Source of the DNA: an uncultured Myxococcales bacterium
GTDB taxonomy: Bacteria > Myxococcota_A > UBA9042
Assembly: GCA_903842345.1 (NCBI GenBank)
Contig: CAIMLR010000039.1
Coordinates: 62,001-126,000 of the forward strand
DNA: 64,000 nt
Reading direction: 5' to 3'
Shown in pieces: positions 16,623 through 33,151 of this stretch. The notes below the pieces were generated by a model. It was not told where the DNA came from. It saw only the letters and a program-made list of their open reading frames with translations, and searched no databases. The position numbers and the translations under genes were made by a program. Position 1 is the first letter of the stretch, and each line of letters begins with the position of its first letter.

Positions 16623-17236
16623 GAAAGCCCCGTCAGGGCAGCTTCCCAGCGAAGCGCGAAGCGCAGAGCCGCCCATCCCCCAGCGTGCCCGGTGCCAAAG
16701 CACCTCCCCAGCGATGCGCGAAGCGCAGAGCCAAGCATCTCCCAGCAAACCAAGTGCCAAGGCACTTCGCCAGCGATGCGCGAAGCGCAGAGCCGTCCAT
16801 CTTCCCGCCGTTCAGCCACCCTCGCGCGGCCACCACCGGACCTTCGCGGGCGTGCATGGCCGGGTCCGCGCCTCAGCGCGCCGGCCGCCTGCGCAAGCCA
16901 CTCACCGCGCGGCCTTCCCCATACGGCCCCATGCCGGGGCGAGGACCGCGCGCAGCGCGACCGCAGCCCACCCCACCGCACCTCCGCCTTCCCCACCAAC
17001 AGGTGCCCGAGCCAAGGAAAGGGGAGTCCGAGGGGAAGACCTGCCGCAGGCTGGTTTTCCCCTCGGATCGCGAAAGAAGAATCAGCTCTATCCATCCAAA
17101 CAAGCGCGCGTATCCCAAGCTCGCGCCGCAGGCGCATCGCCGGGCGCCACCCCATCGCACCCTCGCACGGGTCTGTGCCTCAACGCTCGCGCCGCAGGCG
17201 CATCGCCGGGCGCAACCCGCAAAAGTCTGCCGGCCG
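16623..17236. repeat. Gene-free cluster of palindromic (REP/BIME-like) repeats
   Basis: No convincing gene is present in these 614 bases. A core of about 25 bases (CAGCGAWGCGCGAAGCGCAGAG) occurs three times at exactly 62-bp spacing, with hairpins at 16654-16664, 16715-16727 and 16777-16789 that share a GAA loop. Between the cores lie hairpins whose stems differ but stay paired: GGTGC/GCACC at 16691-16704 and AAGTGCC/GGCACTT at 16752-16767. Further GCA-loop hairpins lie at 16947-16959, 17123-17135 and 17189-17201. The last two sit in a 29-bp direct repeat (17119-17147 and 17185-17213). The region resembles clustered REP/BIME elements. Confidence 0.75.
17027..17067. other. Long near-perfect inverted repeat
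   Basis: TCCGAGGGGAAGACC pairs with GGTTTTCCCCTCGGA (one G/T mismatch), and the interior GCC-GCA-GGC extends the stem, giving about 18 pairs around a 3-base loop. It lies 170 bp beyond the end of the aldehyde dehydrogenase gene. It could stabilise mRNA ends or be a mobile repeat unit. Confidence 0.7.
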
Positions 17237-22968: not shown

Positions 22969-23121
22969 CTTGGCCTCGTGCGTGTGGTGCACCGCGTGCA
23001 GGGCGGGCGCGGCAGGGTAGAACCGCTGCGTTTGCATTTCAAGCTGTTGACCAAGGGATAGCACTTGGCGTGCAATACAAGGCCCTGCCCGTTTGTCGCG
23101 CACCTACAGCCCGGAGTCATC

Positions 23122-24204
23122 ATGTCGCAAGTTTGTCTCATCCTCGGTGGCACCAGCGTGCTGGAACGGAGCATTCAAAACGCCTTGGGCAGCGCGCCGA
23201 TCGTGGTTGGCAGCGTGGAAGAGGTCGTGACGGAGCTCGCGAAACACCCTGGCGCCGTGGTTGTGCTCGGTCCGACGTTCCGGCGTTCGCTGGCGGCGGT
23301 GGCGCAGATTCGCCCGGAGGGCAAGACGCAGCCGCAGATCCTCGTGATCTACCGCGATGATCAGAAAGACGAGGTCAAGCGCCATCAGCGCGGCAAGACG
23401 CTCGCCGACAAGTACGTGCTGCAGTCGCGCGCCGCCAAGGATCTGGAGCCGGCGATCAAGGCGCTGTTCGCGGCGGACGTCGAGGAACTCGACGCGGTGG
23501 AACTGCTGGACGACGACGGCGACGAGACGCTCGCTGAACTCGATGGCGCGGCGCTGGAGCTTGTGGAAGACGACGCGGAGGAGATGGCGGACGCGGATAT
23601 CCAGCTGATCGAGGACGACGAGGCGATGCCCGCGACGATCCAGATGGACGTTGTGACGCTGAGCGCCGACGACGCGCTGGAAGAAGCGCCGACAACGCCG
23701 ATGCCGGGACGCGCGACGGCGCACGATGAAGTCCTGGGCGAGCTGGACGTGGAGGAACTGGACGGCGAGGAGCTCGTGGAGACGCTGGAGCCGGAAGCGA
23801 TCGAGCTGACGGACGACGGCGACGAGCTGGAGGCGCTGGAAGAAGTGCTCGATGAAGCCGTTCTGGAAGAAGAGACCGAGGCGGAAGACGAGGCGCAAGC
23901 GCTGGACGCCGACGATCTGCGCGAAGAGACGGCGCACGAGCACGACAGTGCGGTTCACGCGGAGCTGCAGGGGCTGCGCGACAAGCTGCAGGTCAGCGCC
24001 GCGCAGGTCGACGGACTGGAAACGCAGAACGGCGAGCTGCAGGCCAAGCTGGGCAAACAGAACAGCGAGATCGCCGCGCTGCAGGAGCAGCTCAAGTCTG
24101 CGCGCAGCCAGATCGCGACGCTGCAGACCAAGATGATCGATTGCCGGATTCAGGCGGAGGAAGCCGCGGGCATCGTGAAGGCGCTGGCCAACAAGCTCGG
24201 GTAA
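23122..24204 (+). CDS. Pseudo-receiver / acidic / coiled-coil protein
   Basis: The 360-residue protein has an N-terminal domain of about 115 residues with the alternating strand-helix pattern of response-regulator receivers, ending in TLADKYVLQS in place of the usual K-P loop. The phospho-acceptor position is not Asp (VVVLGPTFRR in its place), so this is a pseudo-receiver. Residues about 120-290 are very acidic, and the last 80 residues are a heptad-patterned coiled coil. The layout is like AglZ and FrzS, polarity and motility proteins of Myxococcus, though sequence similarity is only suspected. GGAG precedes the ATG. It diverges from ffh with a 153-bp gap. Confidence 0.7.
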   Translation: MSQVCLILGGTSVLERSIQNALGSAPIVVGSVEEVVTELAKHPGAVVVLGPTFRRSLAAVAQIRPEGKTQPQILVIYRDDQKDEVKRHQRGKTLADKYVLQSRAAKDLEPAIKALFAADVEELDAVELLDDDGDETLAELDGAALELVEDDAEEMADADIQLIEDDEAMPATIQMDVVTLSADDALEEAPTTPMPGRATAHDEVLGELDVEELDGEELVETLEPEAIELTDDGDELEALEEVLDEAVLEEETEAEDEAQALDADDLREETAHEHDSAVHAELQGLRDKLQVSAAQVDGLETQNGELQAKLGKQNSEIAALQEQLKSARSQIATLQTKMIDCRIQAEEAAGIVKALANKLG

Positions 24205-24206
24205 GG

Positions 24207-27200
24207 CTACCAGCCGGTTGTGGGCACGCCGGTGACGACTTTGTTGGTGTTGTCGCCGAAGCACTTGACCGTCTTGTCGGTCAGCACGCCGCACACGTTG
24301 TTTTCGCCGACGCCGATGGACAGCCATTTGGTGTTGGCGGGCGGCGTTGAGGCGCCAAAGCCGGTCGTCGTCCAGCAGGTCAACGTGTTGTCAGACCGGA
24401 TCGCGCATGCCGATGTGCCGGCGCCGACCGAGAGGAAGCTGCCGGTGTTGGGCGCTGCCGAGACCGCGTAGCTGGAATTGTCGCCCCAGCACACGATGCC
24501 GCTGCCGGACTTGCGGATTCCGCATGTGAAGAAGTCGCCCGCGCTGATTTGGCTGAACGTCTCGCCCGCCGGCACGGTGGTCTGTTTGTAGGTTGTGCCG
24601 CCCCAGCAAGCGACGCTGCCGTCCGCGCGCAAGGCGCAGCTGTGGTCGTAGCCGCAAGAGACCTGGGAAAACGCGCCGGTTGGCACGTTGGTGGTCTGCA
24701 GCGTGTCGGTGGACCAGCATTTCAGCGTGTCGTCGGACTTGATGACGCACGCCTGCGGATTGCCGACCGAGACTTGCTTGACGCCGGTCTGCGTGGTGCT
24801 GAGCCCGGACGGGGTGCTGGCGCCCCAGCACTTCATACTGCCGGCGGCGGTCACCACGCAGGCAAAAGAGTAGCCGGCCGAGACCTGCACGTACGTGCCA
24901 GTCGGCGGCGCGGCGGCGTTGCCCCAGGCGAGCAGGGAGCCTGACGCGTTCAAGCCCTCCGCGTAGGTGTTGCCGGCGTCCGCAAACGGCAAGCCCGCGC
25001 AGATCTGCGTGTGCGTGCAGCCGCTCGCCGGGACGCACGCGTCCGCCGTGCACACGTTGCTGTCGTCGCAGCTGCTGGCCGCGCCTTTGCACGCGCCGGC
25101 GCTGCAGGCGTCCGGACCGGTGCACGGGTTGCCGTCGTCGCACGCGAGCGCGTTGTTGCCGTGGCTGCAGCCGCTCGCTGCGGCGCACGCGTCCGTTGTG
25201 CACACGTTGCCATCGTCGCAGTTGACGGCCGTGCCTTTGCAGGTCCCCGTCGCGCAGCTGTCGCCCGTGGTGCACGCGCTGCCGTCGTCACACGCCGCGG
25301 TGCTCACCGTGTGGGTGCAGCCGCTGCCCGGCACGCACGCGTCCACGGTGCACGGATTGGCGTCATCGCACAGCCCTTCGTCCGTCTGGCCGTTGCAGTC
25401 GTTGTCTACACCGTCGCAGATCTCGGTCGCGCCGGGGTGGATGAGCGGCTTGCCGTCATTGCAGTCCAGGCTATTTGTCACAAACGTCGGCACCGGGCTG
25501 CACGACTGCAAGCTGACCAACGGGTTGCCATACGTGTCGCCATCGCCGTCGGCGAAGTAGACCGTGCCCGCGCCGTTGTCGATCGAGCCGTCGCAGTTGT
25601 CGTCCTTGCCGTTGCACGTCTCCGTCGCGCCGGGGTGGATGGCGCTGTCGGCGTCATTGCAGTCGCCTGGCACCGACGACGACCACAGGCCACTCGCCGC
25701 GCACATGCACTTGATGAGCGCCTGCGTGGTGCCGTAGCCGTCGGTGTCGCCGTCGTAAAAGAAGTTGCTGCAGGTATCGAGCCCCGCGGGATCGGTCACG
25801 CCGTCGCAGTTGTTGTCCAAGCCGTCGCAGATCTCCGGCGCGCCGGGGTGCACGCTGGCGTGCGTGTCGTCGCAGTCGGTGGCGTCGAGCGTGTGGTAAA
25901 CAGGGTCGGCGGCGCACGCGCATTTCACGTCCTGGCCGCCGTAGCCGTCGAGATCGGCGTCCACGTGGAAGCTGCTGCAGCCCTTGGCGCCCAGCTCGTC
26001 GGTCTGGCCGTTGCAGTTGTCGTCCAACGTGTTGCAGGTCTCCGTGGCGCCCGGGTGGATGGCGCTCGACGCGTCATTGCAGTCGCCGCCGATGGACACC
26101 GGATGCGCTGCGTCGGCCGCGCACAGGCAGGCCGCGACGTCGCCGCCATAACCGTCCTTGTCGCCGTCCGCATAGAACGTCGTGCAGTCGACGGGCGGAC
26201 CTTCGTCCGTCTGGCCGTTGCAGTTGTCGTCCGCGTTGTTGCATTTTTCCGGCGCGCCCGGATGGATGCCCGCGCTGGCGTCGTTGCAGTCGCCGGCCTT
26301 GTTGGCCGTGTGGTTGGCGTCCGAGACGCAGAGGCATGCGGCCGCGCCGGCGCCATAGCCGTCTTTGTCGCCATCCAGGTACCAGGAGCTGCAGCCGACC
26401 GCCGCGCCCTCGTCCTGTTTGCCGTTGCAGTCGTCGTCCTTGCCGTTGCTGCAGATCTCCTGCGCCTTGGGATGCACGCTGGCGTCGCCGTCATCGCAGT
26501 CGCCGCCCGCCGCCGCGGTATACGCGCCGGTTGGCCCGCAACTGCACTGGCTCACGCCCGCGCCGTAGCCGTCCCCGTCGCCGTCCACGTAGAACGCCGT
26601 GCAGCCGGGACCGCCCACTGCCACGTCCGTCTCGCCATCGCAGTTGTCGTCCACGCCGTTGCCGCAGGTGTCCGGCTGGCCGGGATGGATCGCCGCGCTG
26701 CTGTCGTTGCAGTCGCCGCCGCCGAACTTGCAGACCTTTGGCGTGCCGACAACGCTCGCCGCTTGATTGCACCAGCCGTCGCCGTCCGCGTCGCAGCCTT
26801 CGTCGGTTACGCCGTTGCAGTTGTCGTCGACGTCGTTGCAGATTTCCGGCGCGCCGGGGTAGACCGCGTAGTTGTTGTCGTCGCAGTCGGTGTTGCCGGC
26901 CGCCAGACTGGTGCCGACGTTGCTGCACAGGCACGTCGCGGCGCCGGCGCCGATGCCGTCGCCATCGTTGTCGCCGTAAAAGGACGTGCAGCCCGTGGCG
27001 CCCAGTTCGTCCGTCAGGCCGTTGCAGTTGTCATCCATGCCGTTGCAGGCTTCTGCCACCGCGGCCGGCGCGTCACACGCGGAGAGGCCGCCCGCCAGGC
27101 ACGTCCGCTTGCCTTGGCACGTCCCAACGCCGTTCTTGGCCACGCAAGGCGTCGAGGCGCCGTCGGCGGTCGCCTGCGCGGAGCACGGGCATTCGCCGCT

Positions 27201-27794
27201 CACGTGGAGGCATTGTTTGCCGCCCGCTGGACCGGACGTGCCCTCCGCGTCGGCGCAGATGTAGCCCTTGGGGCAGTCGCTGTTCGCCGTGCAGCCGCTG
27301 CCGCAGAAGCTGCCCGTCGTGCCGTACGCGATGCAGACCGCGGCGGGATTGAGCGCTTGGCATTCGCTGTCCTGCGCGCACGGGCGGCACAGCGCGGGCG
27401 GACCGTCGTCAACAGGCACCGTCGCGTCGCCCGCTGCGTCGATCGCCGCGTCGTCCGTTCCGTCGACCGCGGCATCGCCCACCGTCGCCGTAGCGTCATC
27501 GCTGTCACTGACAAGCGCGTCCGGGTTGACCGGCACGTCGCCATCCGCGGCATCGGCCGTGGCGTCGACGATCTCCTTGGCCGCGTCGCTGAACGCGTCG
27601 CCAGCGGGCGGAACGTCCGGAATGGCGTCCTTTCCTTGGCCCAAATCGGTCGAAATCACGTCAAATTTGGTCGTAAAACCGAGATCGCCGCCAAAAACGT
27701 CGTCAGCCGGCGCGTCGGCGGTTGGCGTGCCACATCCGGCAAGGGTCAGGACGGCGGCAACCGCCAAGAAAAGGGGGCGAACGGGGGCTTTCAC
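24207..27794 (-). CDS. Lipoprotein with nine MopE-type metal-binding motifs and RCC1-like repeats
   Basis: This 1195-residue surface lipoprotein has a lipobox at Cys21 (LTLAGC) and then an Asp/Ala-rich tether to about residue 130. A Cys-rich part follows (about 135-230). Next come nine copies of the E-x-C-N-x-x-D-D-N-C-N-G motif, most preceded by D-C-D/N-D..IHPGA; this is the MopE-type putative metal-binding repeat. Cys-rich CDDGN..C repeats follow (about 840-930). The C-terminal 250 residues hold RCC1-like repeats of the type C-A-x-x-x-D-G-x-x-x-C-W-G. Calcium or copper binding at the cell surface is inferred from the family. The gene ends 2 bp from the convergent pseudo-receiver gene. Confidence 0.9.
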   Translation of the reverse strand: MKAPVRPLFLAVAAVLTLAGCGTPTADAPADDVFGGDLGFTTKFDVISTDLGQGKDAIPDVPPAGDAFSDAAKEIVDATADAADGDVPVNPDALVSDSDDATATVGDAAVDGTDDAAIDAAGDATVPVDDGPPALCRPCAQDSECQALNPAAVCIAYGTTGSFCGSGCTANSDCPKGYICADAEGTSGPAGGKQCLHVSGECPCSAQATADGASTPCVAKNGVGTCQGKRTCLAGGLSACDAPAAVAEACNGMDDNCNGLTDELGATGCTSFYGDNDGDGIGAGAATCLCSNVGTSLAAGNTDCDDNNYAVYPGAPEICNDVDDNCNGVTDEGCDADGDGWCNQAASVVGTPKVCKFGGGDCNDSSAAIHPGQPDTCGNGVDDNCDGETDVAVGGPGCTAFYVDGDGDGYGAGVSQCSCGPTGAYTAAAGGDCDDGDASVHPKAQEICSNGKDDDCNGKQDEGAAVGCSSWYLDGDKDGYGAGAAACLCVSDANHTANKAGDCNDASAGIHPGAPEKCNNADDNCNGQTDEGPPVDCTTFYADGDKDGYGGDVAACLCAADAAHPVSIGGDCNDASSAIHPGATETCNTLDDNCNGQTDELGAKGCSSFHVDADLDGYGGQDVKCACAADPVYHTLDATDCDDTHASVHPGAPEICDGLDNNCDGVTDPAGLDTCSNFFYDGDTDGYGTTQALIKCMCAASGLWSSSVPGDCNDADSAIHPGATETCNGKDDNCDGSIDNGAGTVYFADGDGDTYGNPLVSLQSCSPVPTFVTNSLDCNDGKPLIHPGATEICDGVDNDCNGQTDEGLCDDANPCTVDACVPGSGCTHTVSTAACDDGSACTTGDSCATGTCKGTAVNCDDGNVCTTDACAAASGCSHGNNALACDDGNPCTGPDACSAGACKGAASSCDDSNVCTADACVPASGCTHTQICAGLPFADAGNTYAEGLNASGSLLAWGNAAAPPTGTYVQVSAGYSFACVVTAAGSMKCWGASTPSGLSTTQTGVKQVSVGNPQACVIKSDDTLKCWSTDTLQTTNVPTGAFSQVSCGYDHSCALRADGSVACWGGTTYKQTTVPAGETFSQISAGDFFTCGIRKSGSGIVCWGDNSSYAVSAAPNTGSFLSVGAGTSACAIRSDNTLTCWTTTGFGASTPPANTKWLSIGVGENNVCGVLTDKTVKCFGDNTNKVVTGVPTTGW

Positions 27795-27821: not shown

Positions 27822-28427
27822 TCATTGCTGTTCGCGGTGATTCTCACGCATGAGCGCGAGGAGCGCGCATGCCAGCAGGAAGCGAGTATCGACATTCTTG
27901 CCTTCCGCCGCCACCGTCAGCCGGTACTCTTTGACAAAAAAGCGGAAGACTTGGTCGACTTTTGCCACTTCTGCCTGCCCCAGCAGCACGCGCCAGTGGC
28001 CCAGCAGGATCGGAAAGATGCGCCGCAGCCAGGACAGGCCGACCTCTTCCAGCACGCCTTGGGCCTGCTCGCCCTGATCCAGCAGCTCCCACGTGTCGCG
28101 GACCATCGATTTCAGCCCGCGCGAACGCAGCGTGCCGATCCACTGGCCGGTCAGCGCGTCGGTCACGTCGTAGATGCGGTTGATCGCGATGATCTGCCGC
28201 GCCTGGATCGTCGCCACTGGTTGCTGCATCGCTTCATCGCCAAAAATCTGGAACTGCTCGCGCATGCGCATCAGCGGGTGGCGCACGTAGGCGATGAGCT
28301 GACCGCCCGCGTCAAAGACGCGAAACGTGCGATTGAAGAACGAAATCCACGGTCGCCGCACGGTGTAAACGCCATCGGGCACGGCAGGAACGATGGCAGC
28401 ACGCGGCGGGGCATAAGCGGAATCCAT
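27822..28427 (-). CDS. LURP-one/scramblase-like (tubby-fold) protein
   Basis: The 201-residue product has short beta-strand units, such as TFRVFDAGGQLIAYVR, EQFQIFGDEAMQQPVATIQ, DVTDALTGQWIGTLR and ILLGHWRVLLG. This pattern resembles LURP-one-related or phospholipid-scramblase-like tubby-fold proteins. One hydrophobic helix lies near the C-terminus (FLLACALLALM). GGAGG 8 bases before the ATG fixes the start. It follows the GH92 gene by 20 bp on the same strand, so they are likely co-transcribed. Lipid or membrane binding is a guess from the fold. Confidence 0.55.
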   Translation of the reverse strand: MDSAYAPPRAAIVPAVPDGVYTVRRPWISFFNRTFRVFDAGGQLIAYVRHPLMRMREQFQIFGDEAMQQPVATIQARQIIAINRIYDVTDALTGQWIGTLRSRGLKSMVRDTWELLDQGEQAQGVLEEVGLSWLRRIFPILLGHWRVLLGQAEVAKVDQVFRFFVKEYRLTVAAEGKNVDTRFLLACALLALMRENHREQQ

Positions 28428-28447
28428 TGTCGAACCTCCGGACAGGG

Positions 28448-30778
28448 TTACGGACAGGCGTTGGCGCCCCAAGTGCTGTCGCCCGGCGTGAGCGTCAACT
28501 CCAAAAAGCCGCCTTGCGCCAGCGCGCTGTGGGCGATGCGCGGCTCAGTCAGCGGCTGGCCATTCCATTTGGCGCTGACGATGTGCGTGGCGGTCGGCGC
28601 GCCCGGCGCTTCCACGCGCACGATCTTGCCGCCGACGTTGATCTCCGCGCGGGCAAAGAGCGGCGCTGTCAGCGTGTAGTACCCGTCGCCTGGCGCGACC
28701 GGGTAGAGGCCCAGCGCGGCGAAAACCAGCCAGCCGGACATCGCGCCCGCGTCGTCGTTGCCGGGCAGCCCGTCCGGCGTCGTGTTGAACTGCCCGGCCA
28801 GCAGCTTGTGCACGCGATCGCTGGCCAGATCCGGCCGGCCCACGTCGACGTAGAGCCACGGCGCGTGAAAGTCCGGCTCGTTGCCCATGTCAAAATGGCC
28901 GCCGTCAAAGAAGTCATTGAGCCGCTGCAGCGTCGCCGCCCGCCCGCCGATCTTCGCCACCAGCCCGCAGCGGTCCTGCGGCACGAGCCACTCGTAGATC
29001 CACGCGGTCGCTTCCGTGAAGCCGACTGTGCCCGCCGGGTCGAACGGCTCGTTCCAACTGCCGTCCTCCGCGCGCAGCTGCGGGTAGCCGTGCGGGCCCC
29101 AGGTGTTCTGCCAATTGTTGCCGCGCGGCGCCATTTGCTTGGCCAGATCCGCGTTGCCCATGGCCTGCGCGTACTGGCCCAGACACCAGTCGGCGTAGCT
29201 GTGTTCCAACGTCATGGACGCGCCCTGCATCAGGTCGCACTCCTGCGGCACCCAGCCATTTTGGACGTAGAACGGCGGCGAGCCTTGGTTGAAATAGCCG
29301 CAAATGCCTTCCTGGTAGGGATTGATCGAATCCGTCATCGCGCCGTGCTGCATCGTCGCCATCGCCGCTGCGGTGTCAAAGTCCTTCAGGCCCTTGACGA
29401 CGGCGTCCGCCATCACGCAAAACGTGAAATTGCCCGTCATCACGCGGGAATCGCCGGTCGCCTGCCAGGGACATTTGGGCAGGTAGCCCTCCGGCCCCGT
29501 CATCCACACAAGCGATTGCAGCATGTCGCCAACGACCTCCGGCTGGATCAGCGTCAGCAGCGGATGGACCGTGCGCGTGGTGTCCCAGACGCACCAGTCG
29601 TCGGTGTAGAAGTGCTTGCCGCCGGTCGATTGGACTTGCGCGACTTCCTTGCTGCCGTTCCAGAACTGGCCGTCTTCCGTGTAGTCCGCCGGCTGGAGCA
29701 TCGCGTGGTAGACGGCGGTGTACAGGCGCGTGCGCTCGACCGCGTCCGTCGTCTCAATCTGGATGCGCGACAGCAGCCCGTTCCACTCGGCGTGCGCCGC
29801 CGCGACAACGCCCTCAAACGTCGCGGTCGTCATCTCGTCCTGCAGGTGTTTCTGCGCCAGCGCATCGGAAATCAGCGACACACACACCCGCGCGTGAATC
29901 GTCTGCGGGGTCGCGCTCTGCCACTCCAACCACGCGCCGGAATCTGCGCCATCGGCCAGCGTGCCGGCGATCTCCTTGCGGCCCTGCCAGACGCCTGACG
30001 CCGTGGGCGGCGCGCTGAAGCGCACGTGGGCGTAGAGGCTCGACAGCCCAACGATCGGCTTCTTGTCCTGCAACAGGCCGCTGATCGCCGGGTGCACGTT
30101 GTAGTCGCCGCGGCCGCTCACGGTGTCGCCCGCGATCTGGACGTGACCACCGACGCTCTTGCCGCGCGTGTGGCCGTAATCCACCAGCACGCGCGCGGTC
30201 CCGGCCGGGAACTGGTACTTGTGCCAGCCGCAATGCCGCGTCACGCCCAACTCGACCGCGATGTCGTGCTCCGGCAGCGTCACAGCGTACCGCCCTGGCG
30301 TGGCGATCTGCGTGGCGCGGTCATACGTCGCGGCGTACTCGTCTTCCTGCACGGTGCGCGTGCCCATCGTCGGCATCAGCGCGATCTGGCTGTAACCGTA
30401 GGCGCTGCCGCCCGGGCCATCCAAGTGCGTGTGCGAAAACGTCTGAATCTTCTGGGCATTCCATTGGTAGCCCTTGATGTCCTGCGTGCCGTTGTCCGTA
30501 TCCGGACCCAGCTTGACCATGCCGTGGGGCAGCGTGACGCCAAAAAAGACGTTGCCGCTGCCGTCGGTGCCAATGCGCGGATCGACGGCCGTCGTCGGAT
30601 CGCCGGCGAGAACGAGCGCCGGCAAGTCGGGCTTGTAGGCCGGAACGTCGGCGGTGACATCGGCGGCAGCGTCCGCATCGTCACCTGCGGCAACATCGGT
30701 ATCGACCGCCGTGGCGGTCTGGCCGCATGCGCTCAGCATCAACAGCGGGAACATCGCAAGGGAGTGAAGAACTTTCAT
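28448..30778 (-). CDS. GH92 family alpha-mannosidase lipoprotein
   Basis: The 776-residue lipoprotein (Cys18 in MLSACG, Asp/Ala-rich tether to about residue 50) belongs to glycoside hydrolase family 92. These are calcium-dependent exo-acting alpha-mannosidases. Family landmarks are VDPRIGTDGSGNVFFG near the N-terminus, the YTDDWCVWDTTR block, ECDLMQGASMTLEHSYADW, GNEPDFHAPWLY, and the calcium-site segment GNDDAGAMSGWLVF. The whole family length is present, so it should act outside the inner membrane on mannose-containing glycans. The scramblase-like gene follows closely on the same strand. Confidence 0.93.
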   Translation of the reverse strand: MKVLHSLAMFPLLMLSACGQTATAVDTDVAAGDDADAAADVTADVPAYKPDLPALVLAGDPTTAVDPRIGTDGSGNVFFGVTLPHGMVKLGPDTDNGTQDIKGYQWNAQKIQTFSHTHLDGPGGSAYGYSQIALMPTMGTRTVQEDEYAATYDRATQIATPGRYAVTLPEHDIAVELGVTRHCGWHKYQFPAGTARVLVDYGHTRGKSVGGHVQIAGDTVSGRGDYNVHPAISGLLQDKKPIVGLSSLYAHVRFSAPPTASGVWQGRKEIAGTLADGADSGAWLEWQSATPQTIHARVCVSLISDALAQKHLQDEMTTATFEGVVAAAHAEWNGLLSRIQIETTDAVERTRLYTAVYHAMLQPADYTEDGQFWNGSKEVAQVQSTGGKHFYTDDWCVWDTTRTVHPLLTLIQPEVVGDMLQSLVWMTGPEGYLPKCPWQATGDSRVMTGNFTFCVMADAVVKGLKDFDTAAAMATMQHGAMTDSINPYQEGICGYFNQGSPPFYVQNGWVPQECDLMQGASMTLEHSYADWCLGQYAQAMGNADLAKQMAPRGNNWQNTWGPHGYPQLRAEDGSWNEPFDPAGTVGFTEATAWIYEWLVPQDRCGLVAKIGGRAATLQRLNDFFDGGHFDMGNEPDFHAPWLYVDVGRPDLASDRVHKLLAGQFNTTPDGLPGNDDAGAMSGWLVFAALGLYPVAPGDGYYTLTAPLFARAEINVGGKIVRVEAPGAPTATHIVSAKWNGQPLTEPRIAHSALAQGGFLELTLTPGDSTWGANACP

Positions 30779-30858
30779 GGCCGCATGGTTTCCCGTGTTG
30801 GCCGGCTTGGCAAGTGGCGGCTGCCGCGAGGGCAGACTAAACCGGCGGACCTTGGTGC

Positions 30859-30936
30859 GGTACCGAAGTTCGTCGGTCAGACCTGTTGGCTTTCGGACTG
30901 GGACCGGGCGCGTGCACCGCCGGCGGCACCCCACGG
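30859..30936. repeat. Dispersed intergenic repeat, copy A
   Basis: About 78 bp between the divergent GH92 and ferredoxin genes resemble 40476-40555. The 3' part (30881-30936 against 40500-40555) is identical at 46 of 56 positions, with no gap. The 5' part aligns with two single-base gaps. The best-preserved part is ACCTGTTG..TTTCGGACTGG. No reading frame is shared. The rest of this 220-bp intergenic region holds nothing I recognise. Confidence 0.7.
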
Positions 30937-31377: not shown

Positions 31378-32490
31378 CTACTTGTCGGCGGGCAGGAAGT
31401 TGAACTCGACGCGGCGGTTCTTCTCGTACGCAGCCTTGTTCTTGGCCGGGTCGAGCGGGCGGTCCGGACCAAAGCCCACCGGCACCAGGCGGCTGCGGCC
31501 AATCCCGCGCTCCACCAGCGCCGCCACGACCGACGACGCGCGCGCCTGGCTGAGCTTCTTGTTCTTCTTGGCGTTGCCGGTCGAGTCCGTGTGGCCCTCC
31601 ACCTGCACGCGCACTTCGCTCTTCTCTTTGAGCGCCGCGGCGCATTCGTCCAGAATCTTGATGCTCACGTCGCCGACGATCGTCGCCTTGTTCACTGCGA
31701 ACTGAATCTGCTTCTTGAAGACGATCTTGTCGTTCTCAACTTCGATCGTGTCGTACTTCTTCGGCTCCGGCGGCGGCGGCGGCAGCTCGTCCGGGCAGCC
31801 GTCCATGTCGTCCAAACCGTTGAACGTCTCGGGCTTGTCCGGGCATTTGTCGTCGTGGCTCGGGAAGTCGATGATGCCGTCGCCGTCGTTGTCCACGTCC
31901 GGGCACCCGTCCGCGTCCTCAAAGCCGTCCTTGTCCTCGGCGTAGTTCGGGCATTTGTCCTTGGCGTCGTCGATGCGGTCGTTGTCGTTGTCGTTGTCCG
32001 GGCAACCGTCTTCGTCGAGGAAGCCGTCCTTGTCCTCGGGCTGATCCGGGCAACGGTCAAACTGATCCTTGATGCCGTCGTTGTCGCGATCGTATTCCGG
32101 GCATCCGTCGTCGTCTTCGTCGTTGTCAAAGTCCTCGGGATCGTCCGGGCACTTGTCCGCCGCGTCGCAAATCCGGTCGCCGTCGCGGTCCGGGCAGCAG
32201 CCCTTCTGGTCCTTGACCGCCGCAGCCTTTTCCGTGTGCTCTTTGGCAATGCTCAGGTTGTGACCCGCGCTCAGCATGTCGCCGTAGCTCGATTCCAGGT
32301 TGGCAAAATCGAGAAACGCTTCCGCGAGCGCCAGATCCTTGGGCGCGCAGTAGTACGCCGGAACTTTGACCTGGCGAATCGTCTCACTGAGTTTGGCCGA
32401 TTCTTCCTGCACTTCCCCGCCCGTGGCGCAGGCCGTGGCGAAAAAGGTCATGGCAATCAGGAGCAGCAGGTGCCGAAGGCTAGCGCTCAT
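31378..32490 (-). CDS. OmpA-family lipoprotein with thrombospondin type-3 repeats
   Basis: This 370-residue protein has a signal ending in FFATAC (lipobox-like), then a helical region to about residue 95. A long Asp-rich series of TSP3-type calcium repeats (C-P-D-D..DNDGDGI.D...C-P) runs through about residues 98-245. The C-terminal OmpA peptidoglycan-binding domain has VEGHTDSTGN and the LSQARASSV segment. It anchors the outer membrane to the cell wall. The start is chosen from AGGGGGG before the ATG, with the frame open further upstream. It overlaps the upstream DUF4398 gene by 4 bp (ATGA), so the two are one operon. Confidence 0.93.
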   Translation of the reverse strand: MSASLRHLLLLIAMTFFATACATGGEVQEESAKLSETIRQVKVPAYYCAPKDLALAEAFLDFANLESSYGDMLSAGHNLSIAKEHTEKAAAVKDQKGCCPDRDGDRICDAADKCPDDPEDFDNDEDDDGCPEYDRDNDGIKDQFDRCPDQPEDKDGFLDEDGCPDNDNDNDRIDDAKDKCPNYAEDKDGFEDADGCPDVDNDGDGIIDFPSHDDKCPDKPETFNGLDDMDGCPDELPPPPPEPKKYDTIEVENDKIVFKKQIQFAVNKATIVGDVSIKILDECAAALKEKSEVRVQVEGHTDSTGNAKKNKKLSQARASSVVAALVERGIGRSRLVPVGFGPDRPLDPAKNKAAYEKNRRVEFNFLPADK

Positions 32491-32912
32491 TTGCCCCCCT
32501 TCGGTGCCGGTGCGGCAGCAGGCGCGGGTGCGACGGGCGCCATCGAACCCGGAACAACGGGCGCCTTGGGCGCAACCGGTTCCTTGGGCGCGAACTTCAG
32601 CAGGCGCGCTTTGCGTTCCTTGCCCAAGCGCGCGACGTCCTGCGCCTTCTCCGCAGCCAACTGCGCCAACTTGGCATATTCCGCGGCCTGCTCGTACATC
32701 CCTTCGCCCGTCAGCTTTTTGGCTTTCTGGAAGTAGGATGTCGCCCGCGTGTACTCGTAAGGCGCGAATTCTTCGCCTTCCAATTTCGTGGCTTCGTCGA
32801 GTTGTTTCTGGGCATCGCCGAGCGACTGCTGCGTGGAAACCGCGCCACAGCCGAGCGCGGAAAACACCAGCGCCGCGCAAGCGAGCGCACGCGTGAAAGC
32901 CGCATTTTGCAA
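32487..32912 (-). CDS. DUF4398 lipoprotein
   Basis: The product carries a lipobox (FSALGC, Cys22 if translation starts at the TTG at 32912) and then a helical DUF4398 region with AQKQLDEATKLEGEEFAP and YEQAAEYAKLAQLAAEKA. The C-terminal 40 residues are Pro/Ala/Lys-rich. The start is uncertain: no ATG fits, and the frame is open to a TTG at 33044. The TTG at 32912 gives a textbook signal sequence but a weak ribosome-binding site. DUF4398 lipoproteins are regularly paired with OmpA genes, as here, where the stop overlaps the next start (ATGA). Confidence 0.8.
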   Translation of the reverse strand: MQNAAFTRALACAALVFSALGCGAVSTQQSLGDAQKQLDEATKLEGEEFAPYEYTRATSYFQKAKKLTGEGMYEQAAEYAKLAQLAAEKAQDVARLGKERKARLLKFAPKEPVAPKAPVVPGSMAPVAPAPAAAPAPKGGK

Positions 32913-33151
32913 CCGATTTCGGCGGGCAACGGCTGGGCGAACGATGGCGTCCAAGATGGTTCTCCGCGCGAGGTTGAGCGCGCCAAGGCCAGCGGCATCA
33001 AGCTCCAAGCTCGCTACTTTCACCGCGGGTCGCCGCCCTGTCAAGCTGACCGCCCGTTTCCACGGCGAATGCGGGCGTGAAACGCACTTGTCAGCAGGCT
33101 ATGCGCTAGGCCAAGATGCGCGTGCTGCGGCGTCGCCCGGCACGGAGATTC

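Follow-up and report, generated by a model that had tools for sequence, protein, structure and literature searches.

Proteins with a match to the Pfam family PF11617 (MopE) are marked as copper-binding by their family name. In MopE of Methylococcus capsulatus (2vov) the motif DCND...HPGA...DxNCDG occurs once, at residues 13-44 of MopE*. Acyloxyacyl hydrolase (5w78-5w7f) also contains a single motif of this kind, DCNDSD...PG...DSNCNG, within an enzyme. Thrombospondin type 3 stalks are Asp-rich Ca2+ rods located beside binding domains. Among proteins with an RCC1-type propeller, the ectodomain of plant CRINKLY4/ACR4 (7a0j, 7a0k) combines C-x~10-CWG pairs with an adjoining Cys-rich region, and the bacterial BLIP-II (1jtd, 3qhy) binds a protein, according to the entry titles a beta-lactamase. 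For the CRINKLY-type propeller, passages of PMC4617170 describe C(X~10)CWG repeats with likely intra-blade disulfides and a ligand presumed to be a peptide or protein. RCC1-like proteins have been recorded in a myxobacterium (PMC3035250, in part).

We analysed a window of 64,000 nucleotides from an uncultured Myxococcales bacterium, in which one gene encodes a predicted lipoprotein of 1195 aa with MopE-type modules, a Cys-rich neck and an RCC1-type propeller. In comparison to MopE, this protein has eight modules instead of one motif, each with an additional DxDxDG loop. Unlike CRINKLY4/ACR4, it is a bacterial lipoprotein without a kinase, and it has a stalk that BLIP-II lacks. Its modules and the thrombospondin type 3 repeats are separate repeat families.

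Gene and domain layout

The gene is an uninterrupted open reading frame with a GTG start and an AGGAG-like ribosome site immediately upstream (Table 1). NG86 dN/dS values against the orthologs were about 0.2-0.4 in every part of the gene (0.25-0.33 in the array), indicating that it is under purifying selection. Pfam assigned PF11617 nine times (E 8.6e-88), PF00526 Dicty_CTDC four times (E 2.4e-13) and PF13540 RCC1_2 five times (E 5e-29); as sequence matches these lie far above chance level. No TSP_3 match was found by Pfam, and NCBIfam held no family for the protein. The order of MopE motifs, CDDGN repeats and RCC1-like blades from the N- to the C-terminus, which an earlier note had read from the DNA, was confirmed by Pfam and by the sequence itself. 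Its count of nine MopE motifs agrees with the nine stretches assigned by Pfam, but inspection by eye revealed eight full modules of about 65-70 residues each (DxDxDGYG ... DCxD ... PG ... C...DDNCNG..DE), preceded by a half motif at around residues 244-262. Matches of paralogs to the protein also start around residue 133. The lipoprotein signal proposed in the earlier note was found as well: the lipobox cysteine is in place, which suggests that the protein may be located at the cell surface. The gene is thus genuine and its parts are ordinary and known, while their combination is unusual.

Table 1 Features of the lipoprotein gene and of the two genes upstream of it
Feature	Position in the window	Strand	Basis or remark
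Whole gene, predicted lipoprotein of 1195 aa	24207..27794	-	Open frame, Pfam, dN/dS
Lipoprotein signal peptide, lipobox LAGC, Cys21	27732..27794	-	Read from sequence
Asp/Ala-rich low-complexity linker, residues 22-132	27399..27731	-	Also in the syntenic G003 protein
Cys-rich N-cap, residues 133-265	27000..27398	-	Half MopE motif at its end
Eight full MopE-type (PF11617) modules, residues 266-810	25365..26999	-	Putatively Ca2+-type
Cys-rich CDDGN / Dicty_CTDC repeats, residues 811-935	24990..25364	-	
Seven-bladed RCC1/CRINKLY-type propeller, residues 936-1195	24210..24989	-	
Conserved protein of 216 aa, no Pfam match at E<=0.01	27822..28472	-	27-bp gap upstream of the lipoprotein gene; syntenic in the genus
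GH92 glycosidase lipoprotein	28448..30934	-	Overlaps the 216-aa gene

Seven RCC1 blades were detected with a profile derived from the blades of this protein, and six of them contain the pattern C-x9/10-C[WF]; the head thus combines the seven blades of the RCC1-like superfamily with the cysteine pairs of the CRINKLY type. Its sequence matched ACR4/CR4 and BLIP-II with E values of 5e-18 to 2e-15. The same proteins occupied the top rows of a fold search (E about 1e-13), which was run with a low-confidence model from a single sequence (mean pLDDT 50.5).

We regard the protein as probably an envelope lipoprotein in which a stalk of MopE modules, stiffened by Ca2+ and disulfides, presents a ligand-binding propeller. 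The rod would consist of the eight modules, each shut by presumed cysteine disulfides and each holding Ca2+ through its invariant aspartates, and would raise the Cys-rich neck and the disulfide-pinned propeller off the membrane. The propeller would be the working end, with a protein or a glycan as its most likely partner. The array would set the length and stiffness of the stalk, the lineage would swap this stalk between heads, and the lipoprotein might cooperate with the GH92 enzyme encoded in the same gene string.

Distribution of the array and its absence from one ortholog

The arrays are abundant in these bacteria. In the genome that contains the window (G000), at least 150 PF11617 matches were obtained from 420 first-look candidates, and the matches listed are spread over 23 ORFs. 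PF11617 was present in all 22 family genomes searched, with 94 to at least 150 listed matches each, so the MopE array by itself is ordinary in the family. Seven paralogous array proteins contained PF11617 alone according to Pfam, and the paralogous arrays of the own genome carry other C-terminal tails of at least two similarity groups (loci L105-L117, tails without Pfam names). RCC1_2 gave 31 rows in eight ORFs of this genome. In the seven RCC1 ORFs other than the lipoprotein, of which C4 was scanned in part, Pfam reported Dicty_CTDC in three and MopE, at E<=0.001, in none. Other family genomes likewise encode additional RCC1 proteins, some with CDDGN-type necks, in which no MopE match was found. 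As a side observation, the Dicty_CTDC repeat has undergone an extreme expansion in G000 outside the window, with at least 150 matches among 1878 first-look candidates.

The domain order that the earlier note had called striking was searched for in related genomes. The joining of MopE and RCC1 proved rare, even though the parts and the array are common in the family; as far as searched, the order is confined to one genus, where four of the five genomes compared encode array and RCC1 head in one protein. At the level of the taxonomic order, the search covered no genomes beyond the 22 of the family. Twenty regions with RCC1-like matches yielded 17 ORFs that passed our patterns (none in L181, L185 and L196), and none of the 17 contained the MopE motif in a pattern-based search, which divergent motifs may escape. 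Home-made profiles found no ORF with both MopE and RCC1 in 77 related loci, drawn from the best 80 of 484, and in the doubtful loci L080 and L081 RCC1 was absent by Pfam. A single ORF of G016 (L202:7265-13612) combines nine TSP_3 repeats with 15 MopE matches and FG-GAP repeats and thereby joins both kinds of stalk repeat; this ORF directly adjoins an ortholog of the 216-aa protein of the window.

Within the genus, orthologs with about 70% identity that include array, neck and head were found in G004 as a single ORF and in G001 and G002 split at contig ends. In G002 and G004 the alignment covered the array completely (545 of 545 residues); in the truncated piece of G001 it covered 530 of 545. 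At the syntenic site of G003, flanked by the 216-aa gene and by the genes for the coiled-coil-like protein and Ffh, an ORF of 537 residues retains the N-terminal linker, the neck and the propeller, the latter with 70% identity. This protein contains no full MopE module, only a half motif that scored 22.5 bits and thus below the cut-off. A simple assembly collapse at this locus is unlikely, as the non-repeated N-cap is missing too. The tree computed for the adjacent 216-aa protein nests G003 with the array-bearing G004 (support 74), which mildly favours an array loss in G003; the RCC1 tree was set aside for the direction of change on account of its very long outgroup branches.

The restriction of the fusion to this genus, together with a G003 head that is devoid of the array, suggests that the array is a stalk that can be exchanged and that the propeller is what the lineage retains. 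The exchange is further indicated by the other tails of the paralogs and by the joining with TSP_3 and FG-GAP in G016. The array-bearing and array-free syntenic copies are a natural experiment on stalk function, and the genus provides a ready test of it since one member has the same head without the stalk. Dicty_CTDC repeats take their name from slime-mould matrix proteins. A role as self-adhesive matrix or biofilm glue, in which sticky arrays would cross-link cells via Ca2+ and the propeller would be a mere cap, could account for the great number of arrays per genome and would agree with these namesakes of the neck repeats. We consider it unlikely, because G003 keeps the head without the array and the array length is fixed among the other members of the genus.

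Neighbouring genes

The lipoprotein is encoded right after the GH92 lipoprotein, a member of what we take to be an alpha-mannosidase family, and the 216-aa protein. The complete string of GH92, 216-aa protein, lipoprotein, coiled-coil-like protein and Ffh is present in G003 and G004, and its upstream part (GH92, 216-aa protein) also in G001 and G002. GH92 did not adjoin the 216-aa gene in any of the three genomes examined from other genera. A GH92 operon as a general rule was rejected on this ground, and cooperation with the lipoprotein appears weakly supported, as the neighbourhood is absent from these genomes.

The propeller could serve as an accessory of this glycosidase that docks either the enzyme or the glycan it acts on at the cell surface. 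The neighbouring and partly overlapping genes on the same strand of the window and the same upstream genes in all four remaining genomes of the genus speak for such a role. The two proteins are separate lipoproteins, however, and the neighbourhood is absent from the three genomes from other genera, which leaves this alternative rather improbable. For the stalked propeller that we prefer, the GH92 glycosidase is a candidate partner within the genus.

On the other side of the lipoprotein gene, positions 23065-24204 encode an acidic coiled-coil-like protein of 379 aa without Pfam match. This gene, convergent with the lipoprotein gene, has syntenic counterparts in G001, G003 and G004.

Metal ligands of the MopE-type modules

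The profile built from the modules of the window aligned to MopE* residues 13-44, and all matches to MopE* were limited to residues 12-74. Passages of PMC3423442 name His132, His203 and kynurenine 130 as the Cu(I) ligands of MopE*. The domain with this site was not matched by the 1195-aa protein, from which the sequence W-x-H (Trp-x-His) is absent. The same source, as far as these passages go, reports that the first 46 residues of MopE* are not visible in the crystal, that CaCl2 shielded MopE* against proteolysis and that MopE* devoid of its first 24 residues was no longer retained on a Cu(II) column. By alignment, these 24 residues contain the start of the motif, and His26 named in the source is the motif histidine. 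The weak Cu(II) sites of MopE* thus map to these 24 residues, and a motif of this kind may bind Cu(II) weakly.

Conservation of the ligands points to a different metal. In 48 aligned three-module segments, positions D12, D14, D16, D40 and D60 and their equivalents in modules 2 and 3 were Asp in 46-48 segments, whereas the residue preceding Pro was His in just 18-24. Among 739 distinct motifs from 77 loci, Asp occupied position -1 in 722, C+2 in 676 and the DDNC position in 737 (91-99.7% Asp), and the upstream Dx[DN]x[DN] was present in 718. The only His site was variable, with Asn in 277, His in 207, Tyr in 91 and other residues in the remainder. Because the cysteines, a proline, an acidic residue or Gln at one position, and the final Gly are prescribed by the pattern used for counting, the motif counts are uninformative on the conservation of these positions. 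Conserved hard oxygen ligands next to a variable soft ligand fit Ca2+, and the modules display the invariant-Asp pattern DxDxDG of Ca2+-type (TSP3/EF-like) stalk repeats.

Besides MopE*, the module profile matched the sequence of one other protein of solved structure, acyloxyacyl hydrolase (chains at E 0.006), which presumably binds Ca2+ at the shared motif. An AlphaFold model of three modules reached a mean pLDDT of 95. In Foldseek it returned acyloxyacyl hydrolase in eight of the nine listed rows, though with E>1 and thus not significantly, and no match of the module model reached a Z of 2 in VIA-align. Together with the Cu(I) site outside the motif and the near-invariant Asp beside a variable His, the match to acyloxyacyl hydrolase suggests that the modules are Ca2+-type rather than copper-binding.

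A surface store or scavenger of copper, or of metal in general, with one copper ion per module as in methanotroph MopE, would suit the Pfam family name, the binding of Cu by MopE* and the His before Pro in 61 of 139 own-genome motifs, but the dense store considered in the earlier note is very unlikely and was rejected as best reading on ligand conservation and the position of the Cu site, given that the conserved residues are Asp and Cys instead of His and Met, that the syntenic G003 copy has no array and that PF11617, according to PMC6189053, corresponds to no more than a short portion of MopE/CorA and is not specific for them. In the other option of that note, an adhesin stiffened by metal, the stiffening agrees with our reading, with Ca2+ as the probable ion. 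As to a methanotroph context, with copper-regulated secretion as in MopE/CorA proteins, PF02461 had no match in the own genome, and the controls in the same search had none either. Literature on MopE in myxobacteria was not found, and PF11617 turned up in one paper.

We tentatively suggest that PF11617 may be misnamed and may mark a calcium rod module that is closed by disulfides and widespread, comparable in bacteria to the TSP3 stalk. This Myxococcota lineage would have expanded the module to hundreds of copies that serve as interchangeable stalks beneath heads of an adhesive or receptor-like kind; in the present protein the head is a CRINKLY-like propeller. Should the module be a calcium stalk, a large share of the surface proteins predicted for these uncultured Myxococcota would carry a wrong label.

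Other observations in the window

An anti-phage role of the locus was rejected, as PADLOC gave no match. Positions 31378-32880 encode an OmpA-family protein with Asp-rich DxDxDG repeats ahead of the OmpA domain; the listed 5' end of this gene is overlapped by the frame of a DUF4398 protein (32487-33044). At 16638-16801, the window contains a tandem repeat with 2.6 copies of a 62-bp unit.
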